From Nesterenkonia sphaerica (lineage in GTDB: Bacteria; Actinomycetota; Actinomycetes; Actinomycetales; Micrococcaceae), in contig NZ_VAWA01000003.1 of the NCBI RefSeq assembly GCF_005771565.1, forward strand, positions 186,001-250,000: 64,000 bases of DNA. Reading direction: 5' to 3'. This document shows, one piece after another, positions 4,940 to 34,258 of the stretch (position 1 is its first letter; the number at the start of each line of letters is the position of its first letter). A program made the position numbers and the translations under genes. The notes under the pieces are model-generated. The model worked only from the letters and a program-made list of their open reading frames with translations. It had not been told where the DNA came from and ran no database searches.

Positions 4940-5863
4940 TCAGCGGATAGCGGCTTCCGGCGCAGGTCCCCTGCGGCGCCCTCTGCGCAGCCGCAGACCG
5001 GGGGCAGCACCAGCCGCCGAACGGGGCCCGGGGAGAGTGAGCCCATTGCTGAGCACCACCAGGACAATGCCCGCCCACGCAATGACCGGCAGCTGCTCAC
5101 TCAGCAGCAGCATCCCAATAGTGGCAGCGAAGAGCGGGTGCAGGGACATGCCCACACCGAAGATCAACGGGCTCACCTGGCGCAGCACCACCAGGTCCAG
5201 GGCATAGGGGACGGCAGTGGCCAGCAGTCCAGCGGCACATGCCAAGAGATACGCCTGCCAGGGCGGCTGTGCGTGCCCTATGACCAGCACCAGCACCGGA
5301 ATCATTCCGAGTGAGGAAAGCACTGTGGCGGCTGCTGTGCCCTGGACACCGGGGACCCTGGTGCCGACGACCCGATTGGTGAGGATATAGCCGGCCCAGC
5401 ACCCCGCGGCGATCAGAGCTACCCCGATGCCGAAGAAGTCTGTGGTGGGACTGGGCCGGGTGAGCAGAATGACCCCGATCAGCGCCACGACCACCCCCAG
5501 CAAATCCCTGCCTCTGCGTGAGGACCAGACTGCCACCGCCAACGGACCCAGGAACTCAATGGTGACTGCTGTGCCGAGGCCCACGCGGTCCAATGCGGTG
5601 TACAGCGCAGCGTTCATCGCCGCGAAGAAGAACGCCAGCAGCGCCACCGGCTTCCACTGAGCCGCCGTGAATCGCCGCAGTGCGGGCCGGGCAACCGAGC
5701 ACAACACCAGGGCGGCGGCCATCTGACGGATCGCCACCACGCCCAAGGGGCCGAGGGTCCCGAAGGCGAGGGAACCGACTGCCGCGCCAGTTTGGGTGCT
5801 CAGCGCGCTGGTGGCGATCACAGCGAAGCCCCGGCCTGGCCGCCCTTGTATCCAGTCGCGCAT
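4940..5863 (-). CDS. EamA/DMT-superfamily transporter, RhtA-like
   Basis: 307 aa with about ten hydrophobic helices arranged as two EamA repeats. Recognisable stretches are FGTLGPLGVVAIRQM and VGLGTAVTIEFLGPLAVA in repeat 1, and PYALDLVVLRQVSPLIFGVGMSL in repeat 2. These resemble the RhtA threonine/homoserine exporter branch. The C-terminus is a short Arg/Pro/Ala-rich tail. It is divergent from a LysR regulator 36 bases away, a common arrangement in which the regulator controls the exporter. The substrate is inferred only. Confidence 0.85.
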   Translation of the reverse strand: MRDWIQGRPGRGFAVIATSALSTQTGAAVGSLAFGTLGPLGVVAIRQMAAALVLCSVARPALRRFTAAQWKPVALLAFFFAAMNAALYTALDRVGLGTAVTIEFLGPLAVAVWSSRRGRDLLGVVVALIGVILLTRPSPTTDFFGIGVALIAAGCWAGYILTNRVVGTRVPGVQGTAAATVLSSLGMIPVLVLVIGHAQPPWQAYLLACAAGLLATAVPYALDLVVLRQVSPLIFGVGMSLHPLFAATIGMLLLSEQLPVIAWAGIVLVVLSNGLTLPGPRSAAGAAPGLRLRRGRRRGPAPEAAIR

Positions 5864-11513: not shown

Positions 11514-11837
11514 ATGACGGGGCTTACCGAGGACGCCTGGGGTGAGGAGCACTATCTATGTCTCCGCACCTCCGGCGGTACGGTGGAGATCATTGGCAAT
11601 GTGGTTCACCTTCCCGGCGCGCAGCCGGTGCAGCTGGCTGCCGGGCCGATGTCAGTGATGCGCGCGCTGGTCAAGGCCCGCGGCGCAGTCATCTCACGCG
11701 AGTCCCTGCTGGGGGTGCTTCCAGAGTGTGGGTCCGTCCACGGTCTTGAAATGTGGATCTCCAGACTGCGCCAGGCGCTGCCGGACCCCTGCGCGGTCCA
11801 GACCGTGGTCAAACGAGGCTATCGGCTGGCCCTGTGA
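11514..11837 (+). CDS. Stand-alone winged-helix DNA-binding protein (OmpR/PhoB C-terminal fold)
   Basis: 107 aa and almost only a Trans_reg_C winged helix: PMSVMRALVKARGAVISRES, LEMWISRLRQALPD and the closing QTVVKRGYRLAL. That closing strand is typical of the winged helix fused to the C-terminus of actinobacterial uroporphyrinogen-III-synthase-like proteins, but here no enzyme domain precedes it. GAGGAGG seven bases before the ATG supports a real, separately translated gene. It is divergent from the AztD-like gene and could regulate the metal locus; this is positional inference. It ends 3 bases from the convergent trmB. Confidence 0.7.
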   Translation: MTGLTEDAWGEEHYLCLRTSGGTVEIIGNVVHLPGAQPVQLAAGPMSVMRALVKARGAVISRESLLGVLPECGSVHGLEMWISRLRQALPDPCAVQTVVKRGYRLAL

Positions 11838-31842: not shown

Positions 31843-32333
31843 GGGTCAATCCTCACTTGTCGAATGCCACGACTCCTGTGCACGTCACCTGGGCGGTGAC
31901 GCGAATGAAGTGTCCGGGGCCGCCCACAAGTGGGGAAGCAAGCGATGGGAACTCAGAGCGAATCCCCCGGTCAGCTCGCGTCCAGGTTAACAAGTTGGTC
32001 ACAGGCCACGGCAGAGCGGCATTCGACCAGAGGTTGAAGCTCTCTGGACACTGGTGACACTGGCACTGAGGGCGTGGCGAGCCGAAAGGCCGAGGAAGAG
32101 ATCAGGGGGCAGCCGAGCATCGACGGCGAAATGCCACTACCGCAGGACACACTCCGAACACTGCGCTGCCCCCTGAGCCACTTACTCTGTCAATAATTCT
32201 CGCGTGCGCCGCCACGCCATCGCCGATGACGCCGGATTGTGACCAGACCGTTACCGACCGGCTTCCAAAAACTCATAGGAAACGTCCAGGCGTTATGGGG
32301 CATTCCGTTAAGAATGATGCGTAATTTAGACAG
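31843..32333. other. 491-bp non-coding region upstream of the Rpf-type gene
   Basis: No convincing gene. Structures seen: CCAGAG/CTCTGG stem (coding-strand sense of the Rpf-type gene, about 32029-32049), a GCC-GAAA-GGC tetraloop hairpin on the plus strand (32081-32090), and a 12-bp perfect inverted repeat (32102-32176). It is long enough for a regulatory leader of the M23/Rpf gene or for a small RNA gene; the core sequences of the c-di-AMP riboswitch that precedes many rpf genes were not found. Confidence 0.5.
32102..32176. repeat. 12-bp perfect inverted repeat closing a 75-nt fold
   Basis: TCAGGGGGCAGC (32102-32113) pairs with GCTGCCCCCTGA (32165-32176) around 51 nt, which contain a smaller GGC/GCC hairpin. 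It lies in the non-coding region between the Rpf-type gene and the RNA element at 32334, and belongs to neither by sequence. Confidence 0.6.
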
Positions 32334-32420
32334 TGCCTCTTCAAGGTGCGAGTGATTCAGGCTCCCCGGCTGGCCATCTATGCGTCCCCCTCACGCGGCC
32401 ACCCGGGGAGCTTTCTCGTG
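32334..32420 (+). ncRNA. Structured RNA element, copy 1 (leader or small RNA)
   Basis: An 87-nt segment nearly identical to 33296-33380. A -10-like TAATTT (32322-32327) ends six bases before the conserved region. The 5' part GTGCGAGTGATTCA is unpaired; then GCTCCCCGG-C-TGGCC (from 32361) pairs with GGCCACCCGGGGAGC (to 32411), 14 of 15 pairs, topped by a GCGT-CCCCCTC-ACGC hairpin and followed by CTTTCTCGTG. It is either an attenuator-like leader for the S4 gene 14 bases downstream or an independent small RNA ending at the hairpin. Confidence 0.7.
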
Positions 32421-32434
32421 TTTACACTGGTGCC

Positions 32435-32821
32435 ATGTCTGATGGACACACCTCACCAGTGCGGGTCGATGCCTGGCTGTGGTCAGTCCGGATGTTCAAG
32501 ACGCGTTCGGCGGCGACAAGCGCCTGCCGCGCCGGAAAGATCAAGATTGCAGGTGACCCCGTCAAGCCGTCGACGAAGATCAGTCCCGGCGTCCGGATCA
32601 CCATCAGCAGACCCGGTTTCGTGGTCATTCTCGAAGTCCTCCACACCTATGCCAAGCGTGTGGGCGCCCCGTTGGCACAGAAGGCCTACCGCGACCTCTC
32701 GCCCGAGCAGATTAAGCCCCGTGACGTGGGTCTGCCCACCCGCGAGCGTGGTACCGGCCGCCCCACCAAGCGGGAGCGACGCCAGCTGGAAATTCTGCGC
32801 GGCTACACCAAGAACGAGTGA
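32435..32821 (+). CDS. RNA-binding S4-domain protein, Hsp15/HslR family
   Basis: 128 aa. The S4 domain fills the N-terminal half (VRVDAWLWSVRMFKTRSAAT, ACRAGKIKIAGDPVKPSTKI), followed by a basic tail rich in Arg and Lys. Hsp15 binds 50S subunits carrying stalled nascent chains; this is the likely role by family. The ATG is 14 bases after the structured RNA element, with no strong Shine-Dalgarno sequence, which fits control by that element. A longer reading would start inside the RNA element and is not credible. Confidence 0.85.
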   Translation: MSDGHTSPVRVDAWLWSVRMFKTRSAATSACRAGKIKIAGDPVKPSTKISPGVRITISRPGFVVILEVLHTYAKRVGAPLAQKAYRDLSPEQIKPRDVGLPTRERGTGRPTKRERRQLEILRGYTKNE

Positions 32822-32836
32822 CGTTACGCTAGTCGC

Positions 32837-33184
32837 ATGACACAACGCGTAGATCTCGGCCCAGCTGACCAGCTTCCTGAACGTCAGGTGATGCAGGTTC
32901 CGGCCAAGCAGGCCGGAACCGACCTAGACATTGCCGTCGTCCACGCTGAAGACGGCGGCTTCTACGCCGTGGACGACGAATGCTCGCACGAAGCCGTGGC
33001 CCTCTCCGAGGGCTTTGTGGAGGATGAGACCTTGGAGTGCCCCATGCATGGGGCTGTCTTCTGCTTACGCACCGGCGCCCCCGAGACGCCACCGGCATTC
33101 GAGCCTGTGAAGACTCATTTGGTCACCGTCGAGGACGGGCACCTGATTCTGCATCCCGGCGTTCCGCATCCCGACGCTGACTAA
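32837..33184 (+). CDS. Rieske-type [2Fe-2S] ferredoxin, NirD-like
   Basis: 115 aa. Both halves of the Rieske cluster motif are present: C49-x-H51 (ECSHEA) and C68-x-x-H71 (CPMHGAVF). The fold is a small electron-transfer ferredoxin like NirD or the ferredoxin component of aromatic dioxygenases. No dioxygenase or nitrite reductase gene is nearby, so its partner is unknown. It lies 15 bases after the S4 gene and is probably co-transcribed with it. Confidence 0.87.
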   Translation: MTQRVDLGPADQLPERQVMQVPAKQAGTDLDIAVVHAEDGGFYAVDDECSHEAVALSEGFVEDETLECPMHGAVFCLRTGAPETPPAFEPVKTHLVTVEDGHLILHPGVPHPDAD

Positions 33185-33295
33185 GCCACCCCAACTCCAT
33201 AGCTCCCCCCACCCAGTAGCTCTACCGGCCAAAGTCACAGACAACGTTCAGCCAAAACCGGGTGGTCCTTCAAGGTAGAACCCTATATTGATAAC

Positions 33296-33380
33296 TGCCT
33301 CATCAAGGTGCGAGTGATTCAAGCTCCCCGGTTGGCCATTATGCGTCCCCTCACGCGGTCAGCCGGGGAGCTTTCTCGTG
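33296..33380 (+). ncRNA. Structured RNA element, copy 2
   Basis: 85 nt, nearly identical to the element at 32334. TATATT (33284-33289) ends six bases before the conserved region, exactly as in copy 1. AAGCTCCCCGGTTGGCC (from 33321) pairs with GGTCAGCCGGGGAGCTT (to 33373) in 17 continuous pairs, two of them G-U. The apical hairpin is GCGT-CCCCTC-ACGC. Differences from copy 1 fall mostly in the stem and preserve pairing. The HAD gene begins 65 bases downstream. The rest of 33185-33445 shows nothing else. Confidence 0.7.
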
Positions 33381-33445
33381 CTGAGCTTCCCTATCCAATG
33401 ACCTTTTCGGGACCCCTTCCGCCTCGGCGGCCTAGGATAGAGGGC

Positions 33446-34258
33446 ATGAGTGCTGAGAACATTGAATGCTGGTTGACTGACATGGACGGGGTTCTCGTAC
33501 GCGAACACGAGGCCCTGCCGGGCGCGGCCGAGCTTCTGGAGCAGTGGCGTCGTCGGGATCTGCCCTATGTGGTCCTGACCAACAACTCCATTTTCACCGC
33601 TCGGGACCTCTCGGCCCGCCTGCGGCATTCAGGTCTCGTCGTCCCGGAAGATCGGATCTGGACCTCAGCGCTAGCCACAGCCACGTTCCTGGCCCAGCAG
33701 ACAGATGCCGATCACGGCAGGGGAAGCGCCTACGTGGTGGGTGAAGCCGGTCTCACCACCGCGCTGCACGAGGCCGGGTTCATCATGACGGAGACAGCTC
33801 CCGACTACGTCGTGGTCGGCGAGACCCGCAACTACAGCTTCGAGGCCATCACCAAGGCCGTGCGTCTGATCAATGATGGTGCGCGGTTCATTGTGACCAA
33901 CCCGGACGCGACGGGCCCCAGCCCCGAAGGGGTTCTCCCTGCCACCGGGGCGATCGCCGCGCTGATCACCAAGGCCACCGGTTCCGATCCGTACGTGGTC
34001 GGCAAACCCAATCCGATGATGTTCCGCTCGGCGTTGAACCACCTAGGGGCTCACTCCATGCAGACGGCAATGATCGGAGACCGCATGGACACCGACATTG
34101 TCGCCGGGATGGAAGCTGGTATGCACACGATTCTGGTCATGTCCGGCGTGTCATCCCAAGCCAGCATTTCCCAGTACCCGTTCCGGCCGCACCGCATCAT
34201 TGACGGTGTCTATGAGCTGCTGGACGAGCCGCTGAACGGCGACCCCCCGGACGCCTGA
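33446..34258 (+). CDS. HAD-IIA family hydrolase (NagD-like phosphatase)
   Basis: 270 aa. The HAD nucleophile motif is D12-M-D14-GVLV; LTNNSIFT is motif II; a C2 cap follows (TTALHEAGFIMTETAPDYVVV), then KPNPMMF and IGDRMDTDIVAGMEAGM as motifs III and IV. The family dephosphorylates nucleotides and sugar phosphates; some actinobacterial members act on glycerol phosphate. AGAGGG just before the ATG sets the start. The 3' end overlaps the convergent FAD/Fe-S gene by 49 bp. Confidence 0.9.
   Translation: MSAENIECWLTDMDGVLVREHEALPGAAELLEQWRRRDLPYVVLTNNSIFTARDLSARLRHSGLVVPEDRIWTSALATATFLAQQTDADHGRGSAYVVGEAGLTTALHEAGFIMTETAPDYVVVGETRNYSFEAITKAVRLINDGARFIVTNPDATGPSPEGVLPATGAIAALITKATGSDPYVVGKPNPMMFRSALNHLGAHSMQTAMIGDRMDTDIVAGMEAGMHTILVMSGVSSQASISQYPFRPHRIIDGVYELLDEPLNGDPPDA

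Follow-up and report, generated by a model that had tools for sequence, protein, structure and literature searches.

The window considered here, a continuous stretch of 64,000 nucleotides from Nesterenkonia sphaerica, contains two copies of a structured element. Judged by their sequence, they are probably stand-alone genes for sibling small RNAs of about 85 nt, co-activated by a regulator of the OmpR type and acting in trans. The preliminary description took the copies for attenuator leaders or small RNAs. Its proposal of a structured RNA family placed behind a -10 sequence stands, while the leader option fails on the promoters of the following genes, discussed below. The features of both copies and of their neighbours are as follows.

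32276..32312, + strand: operator of copy 1, with boxes in an 11-bp register (TAG at 32276, CAG at 32287, a degenerate box at 32298, TAAG at 32309)
32322..32327, + strand: -10 hexamer of copy 1, TAATTT, from direct reading and the promoter comparison
32335..32356, + strand: conserved 5' core of copy 1, GCCUCUUCAAGGUGCGAGUGAU, beginning at the probable RNA start
32335-32338/32344-32347, + strand: mini-hairpin of copy 1
32359..32413, + strand: GC-rich hairpin of copy 1, followed by a U-containing tail (folding, covariation, shuffle control)
32386-32392, + strand: C-rich loop of copy 1, CCCCCUC
32423..32428, + strand: putative -10, TACACT, of a leaderless promoter belonging to the S4 gene itself (direct reading)
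32435..32821, + strand: neighbouring gene of an S4-domain protein, outside the RNA (Pfam PF01479, E 7e-9)
33238..33275, + strand: operator of copy 2 (CAG at 33238, CAG at 33249, a degenerate box at 33260, CAAGG at 33271)
33284..33289, + strand: -10 hexamer of copy 2, TATATT (direct reading, promoter comparison)
33297..33318, + strand: conserved 5' core of copy 2, GCCUCAUCAAGGUGCGAGUGAU, beginning at the probable RNA start
33297-33300/33306-33309, + strand: mini-hairpin of copy 2
33321..33373, + strand: GC-rich hairpin of copy 2, with the tail UUCUCG (folding, covariation, shuffle control)
33347-33352, + strand: C-rich loop of copy 2, CCCCUC
33433..33438, + strand: putative -10, TAGGAT, of a leaderless promoter belonging to the HAD gene itself (direct reading)
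33446..34258, + strand: neighbouring gene of a HAD-family hydrolase, with its ATG at 33446 (Pfam PF13344, PF13242)

When copy 2 is compared with its own genome by blastn, the two copies, at 32334-32420 and 33296-33382, align over 87 nt with 92% identity (E 4e-28), in agreement with the near-identity first described. A conserved 25-mer occurs twice in the window and in none of 100 shuffles. A third copy was not found by blastn in the 2.79-Mb genome of the organism, the next matches having E values of 0.23 or worse. The folding z-scores of the two elements are -3.75 and -6.18, and none of 200 shuffles was equally stable. Direct reading of the sequence bears out most of what had been reported from it: the hexamers TAATTT and TATATT at 32322-32327 and 33284-33289, the stems, the C-rich loop closed by GCGU and ACGC, the UUUCUCG tail, and the stem differences in which a C-C mismatch becomes a U-G pair and a G-C pair becomes a G-U pair. 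Transcription had been placed at the first base of the conserved region. The start just after the -10 holds, but it is likely to lie one base later, at G32335 and G33297, 7 nt after the -10; this placement follows from the comparison with related promoters, in which the spacing between the -10 and the core is 7 nt in 75 of 104 cases, 6 nt in 27 and 8 nt in two. For both copies, pairing is predicted between the GCGAG of the core and the 3' tail, so that GCGAG may not be free.

In 104 of 105 non-redundant promoters, 6-8 nt separate the end of a TANNNT hexamer from the core, and it is this near-fixed distance that argues for a promoter belonging to the elements themselves. No conserved -35 hexamer was found among the 104 promoters. 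Upstream of the -10, the trinucleotide CAG occurs at positions -46, -35, -24 and -13 in 80, 80, 17 and 20 of the 104 promoters, respectively, against a mean of 5.0 per position; 62 of the 104 have CAA or CAG at -13. The spacing between these four positions, at which CAG is most frequent, is exactly 11 bp, about one helical turn; the -24 box is weak, and the last CAG or CAAG box is located 8-9 nt before the -10. Two things were missed in the preliminary description: these operator boxes phased at 11 bp, and the fact that the most conserved part of the element is the 5' segment of 22 nt and not the hairpin.

A model of the promoter only, R1, was built without any transcribed base. In the genome of N. 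sphaerica it matches copy 1 at 32270-32333 (E 4e-7) and copy 2 at 33232-33296 (E 1e-7); beyond these two there is a site inside an open reading frame, presumably glmS, at E 0.06 and one more at E 1.9. When 24 genomes from 13 genera were searched with R1, matches were obtained in 23 of them, with 64 sites at E<=0.05. The core stands just downstream at all 30 of these loci that were read, from 12 genera, as the exact 12-mer in 27 and as a one-base variant in three, and within the genus it adjoins 82 of the 85 R1 sites at E<=1e-3. Twelve R1 sites of the genus were read; five have the core and seven have no recognisable core. The core-less sites stand before a catalase gene in G015 and G016 and a glycosyltransferase gene in G018; two weak ones are in G017, and two unexplained ones in G022 and G029. 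From its matches, the promoter seems to serve little besides these RNAs, plus a few other genes such as that of catalase.

Several of the core-less sites can be described further. The 11-bp-phased operator precedes a long (HPII-type) catalase gene in G016 (L402, 201-383) and G015 (L181/L193); the catalase of G015 was recognised by reading, and Pfam was run on those of G016 and Citricoccus. In Citricoccus an RNA copy is located at 5281, about 100 nt after the catalase gene (L112, 2849-5182), and no operator was found before this adjoining catalase gene. In the genome G017 the gene of a BCCT osmolyte transporter has upstream of it a -10-like sequence and a weak site resembling the operator (E 0.046; L186/L192). 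The same genome has CTCCCAG boxes 22 bp apart (L191, 2872-3660; E 0.027), immediately past a pair of genes for a histidine kinase and an OmpR response regulator.

The search for homologues brought out an RNA family with compensatory changes in the stem. Its 145 loci reduce to 142 distinct elements, of which L004 was dropped as a coding false match, and 141 were kept. The near-invariant 5' end of 22 nt, RCCUCAUCAAGGUGCGAGUGAU, opens with a small hairpin, ACCU/AGGU. Across the 141 elements there is hardly any variation within the core RCCUC[A/U]UNAAGGUGCGAGUGAU, whose positions 10-21 are fixed at 99% or more, while the downstream hairpin drifts. The stem of the mini-hairpin is kept in the variants CCUU-AAGG and CCUC-GAGG and with varied loop lengths. 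In some Citricoccus and Micrococcus copies (L050, L051, L056-L060) the 15-nt core segment AAGGUGCGAGUGAUG (AAGGTGCGAGTGATG) is duplicated head to tail.

Matches by blastn were obtained in 29 of 30 genomes of the genus (its own included), in 73 of 149 genomes of the family and in 23 of 32 genera; G017 is the one genus genome among the 30 in which neither blastn nor the 12-mer detected an RNA copy. The exact core 12-mer GGTGCGAGTGAT is present in 221 of 245 Micrococcaceae genomes, compared with 31 of 245 for a reversed control pattern. If single matches are counted, 31 of 32 genera have it, and many genomes hold several matches, up to nine with duplicated cores counted twice. The genus g6 is at the control level, with one match each in three of 17 genomes, and the 12-mer was found in none of the three genomes of g13; a fair reading is therefore that the RNA family occupies about 30 of the 32 genera of Micrococcaceae. 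A longer core with one mismatch allowed was found in 13 of 396 genomes of the order, all 13 of them Micrococcaceae, and the control gave none. The exact 21-mer is present in 51 stretches of a collection of 84,980 species, whose titles read 'Micrococcaceae bacterium', Nesterenkonia, Micrococcus, Citricoccus, Arthrobacter, Auritidibacter, Garicola or Zhihengliuella; all of these genera belong to the Micrococcaceae.

Outside the Micrococcaceae none of the matches found was convincing. Two of 297 genomes of the order gave weak model matches (E 0.0025 and 0.008). These were taken as chance matches, as L207 has no core and L210 has only GGTGCGAGTGACC. Viral contigs and phages did not match the element. 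Core matches are present in unannotated stretches of two Citricoccus plasmids, and some copies of the element are in tandem or on plasmids beside other genes.

The hairpin downstream of the core is GC-rich and terminator-like, and its loop usually contains 4-7 C across the family. Covariation was assessed on an alignment of 55 sequences out of 66 elements that had been selected for C-rich loops. Its 12 consensus pairs have 95.3% paired cells, with 38 double-change cells against 6.4 in shuffles, and the signal is destroyed when the pairing partners are slid. Among these sequences the 5' mini-stem varies only between A-U and G-U. Within the 70 nt that follow the core, 125 of the 141 elements have a hairpin of 8 bp or more that begins no farther than 8 nt from the core, compared with 68-81 in six dinucleotide-shuffled sets; in 94 of the 141 the loop of this near hairpin has four consecutive C, compared with 4-11. 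A stretch of 100 nt holds a hairpin of at least 8 bp with at least four C in the loop in 112 of the 141 elements. The remaining 29 have no such hairpin, and therefore the C-rich loop cannot be the whole function. Some copies consist of the core and a plain terminator. The U tract after the hairpin is weak, with a mean of 3.0 U in 9 nt (131 measured). With regard to a terminator of their own, the hairpin is maintained and the next genes are separately promoted, but the U tract is weak. A small open reading frame from the conserved GTG was rejected by inspection, as the hairpins differ by indels and compensatory changes.

It is important to consider the genes that follow the elements. The S4 and HAD neighbours named in the preliminary description were recovered by Pfam, as was the Rieske gene, and the elements might be attenuator leaders of the S4 protein and HAD hydrolase genes. 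The hairpin of copy 1 is terminator-like, and about 20 nt separate its end from the S4 gene, which has the same orientation; the order of element and S4 gene is kept for 23 elements. However, TACACT stands 6 nt before the ATG of the S4 gene and TAGGAT stands 7 nt before the ATG of the HAD gene, so that both genes are probably leaderless. A downstream gene within 900 nt was identified, by tblastn with ten neighbour proteins, for 70 of the 141 elements (71 had no identified downstream gene): 27 are on the same strand, 23 of them S4 and four HAD, and 43 face the element. In all 27 same-strand genes, the two in the window included, an in-frame start is preceded at 5-8 nt by TANNNT; one of the HAD genes follows two elements in this count. 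The 23 S4 genes behind elements all have it. In the first check of S4 genes 9 of 11 S4-like open reading frames passed; L034 passes with a wider search, and L106 has no core in the 260 nt searched. The elements are very probably not leaders, because the S4 and HAD genes have -10 sequences of their own and many downstream genes face the elements; the copies in tandem, and those on plasmids beside other genes, also argue against it. The attenuator reading was rejected on this account and is given very little probability.

In another explanation the 5' core is the working part and is bound by a protein (an RNA chaperone, a ribonuclease or a regulator), the hairpin is a mere terminator, and the RNAs are decoys or scaffolds. 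In its favour, the core is conserved far more than the hairpin, some copies have just the core and a plain terminator, and AAGGUGCGAGUGAUG is duplicated in tandem in some others. However, C-rich loops in 94 of 141 near hairpins, a frequency far above the shuffles, would be needless in a mere terminator, and we consider this explanation rather unlikely, although it is the most serious of the alternatives. The core could also be a Shine-Dalgarno mimic which titrates the 16S rRNA tail, since AAGG and GUGAU are both found within AAGGAGGUGAU by direct reading. With the 16S rRNA tail, however, 1230 of 2000 shuffles gave a duplex energy at least as strong, and this possibility can hardly be maintained.

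Among known RNAs the closest kind is 6C (RF01066), also a small actinobacterial RNA with C-rich hairpin loops, which in M. tuberculosis reportedly binds mRNAs through these loops. A C-rich hairpin loop as in 6C (at least 8 bp and at least four C) is found in 112 of 141 elements, and 6C itself is present in two genera of Micrococcaceae. That the elements are divergent members of the 6C family is nevertheless extremely improbable. The RF01066 model gave no match around the window elements at E values up to 10 or in 18 related loci at E<=1, and the present RNAs have another 5' sequence, many siblings and a phased operator of their own. The 6C RNA was found in seven of 100 genomes of the family, in two of the 32 genera sampled, g6 and g11 (L061-L067); none of these seven loci has the core, and three genomes of g11 hold both RNAs. 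The genus g6 has 6C without the core RNA, and g11 has both.

Rfam 15 gave no match at gathering score in the whole 64-kb window; in the preliminary description, too, the element could not be matched to a named family. Around the elements three Rfam matches were obtained at E<=10, all far below their gathering scores. Of 60 loci then collected, 18 were scanned against Rfam at E<=1; one of the 18 shows a weak similarity of the hairpin to the F6 sRNA of mycobacteria (RF01791; 29.8 bits, E 0.24), but the score is below the gathering score of 46. The presence of several similar copies, sometimes in tandem, and in some cases of C-rich loops is a likeness to other multi-copy or C-rich sRNAs, such as the meningococcal sibling sRNAs, the NsiR1 tandem array and sX13 of Xanthomonas. 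These belong to other phyla and have no known sequence relation to the present family, and unlike them the Micrococcaceae RNAs share one invariant 5' end throughout the family and have an operator phased at 11 bp. In the open-licence literature, three papers contain the core 12-mer or its complement, none of them on a Micrococcaceae RNA to judge by the titles, and no description of the RNA family was found with the motif or with Micrococcus and Arthrobacter sRNAs. Four sRNAs are reported for A. oxidans in one article (PMC6696678). By the comparison with Rfam and the open-licence literature, the elements look like a previously unlisted RNA family.

The arrangement of the operator gives some indication of the regulator. 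In SARP promoters, according to PMC10936776, direct repeats are spaced by 11 or 22 bp and the final one lies 8 bp from the -10, and the operators described here resemble these SARP (AfsR)/PhoB-type promoters in having 11-bp direct repeats that end at this distance. They differ in their CAG/CAAG boxes, in the lack of a BTAD-domain SARP in this genome and in driving almost only small RNAs. Such a repeat architecture is typical of PhoB-like regulators too. A SARP was rejected as the regulator: no BTAD/SARP protein is present in the genome of N. sphaerica (no PF03704 match), and 109 of 240 genomes of the family have one. The genome has 10 Trans_reg_C matches. No orthogroup of the OmpR family was both present in eight RNA-positive genomes and absent from six RNA-negative ones; this co-occurrence test is crude (107 of 115 Trans_reg_C matches in 14 genomes, reciprocal-best-hit groups at 45% identity or more, frames chosen by motif) and would miss a regulator kept in RNA-negative genomes. 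The window itself has, at 11622-11828 on the + strand, a weak stand-alone Trans_reg_C domain (E 8e-8) in an open frame of 113 residues, with possible relatives in G016 and G017 as frames of 108-134 residues.

For the sibling small RNAs we propose the following mechanism. An activator with a DNA-binding domain of the OmpR/PhoB type would bind the boxes next to RNA polymerase and would activate all copies at once, perhaps as part of a stress response. The operator sites at the catalase and osmolyte-transporter genes, which are few and in the case of the transporter weak, suggest such a link to stress. The sibling RNAs would act in trans, the exposed C-rich loop pairing with G-rich ribosome-binding sites; by analogy with other RNAs that have C-rich loops, these sites are probably what the loop acts on. 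The constancy of the linker GYGAGUGAU demands some further function: the invariant 5' segment could offer another seed for pairing, or be the handle by which an RNA-binding protein takes hold of the RNA. A more specific version is put forward only tentatively. It supposes a signalling system with hardly any output other than small RNA, in which one OmpR-type regulator, acting at an operator phased at 11 bp and lacking a -35, would control a redundant set of sibling RNAs and a few protein genes in most Micrococcaceae, and the 5' segment would tag all the RNAs for an RNA-binding partner.

Small-RNA regulation in Actinobacteria is poorly known, and the phylum is not known to have Hfq. If the proposed interpretation is true, a family of small RNAs without a match in Rfam would span most of an environmentally common bacterial family and would be tied to a single transcriptional switch. 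The invariant 5' tag and the dedicated operator would then be handles for finding the regulator and any RNA chaperone.
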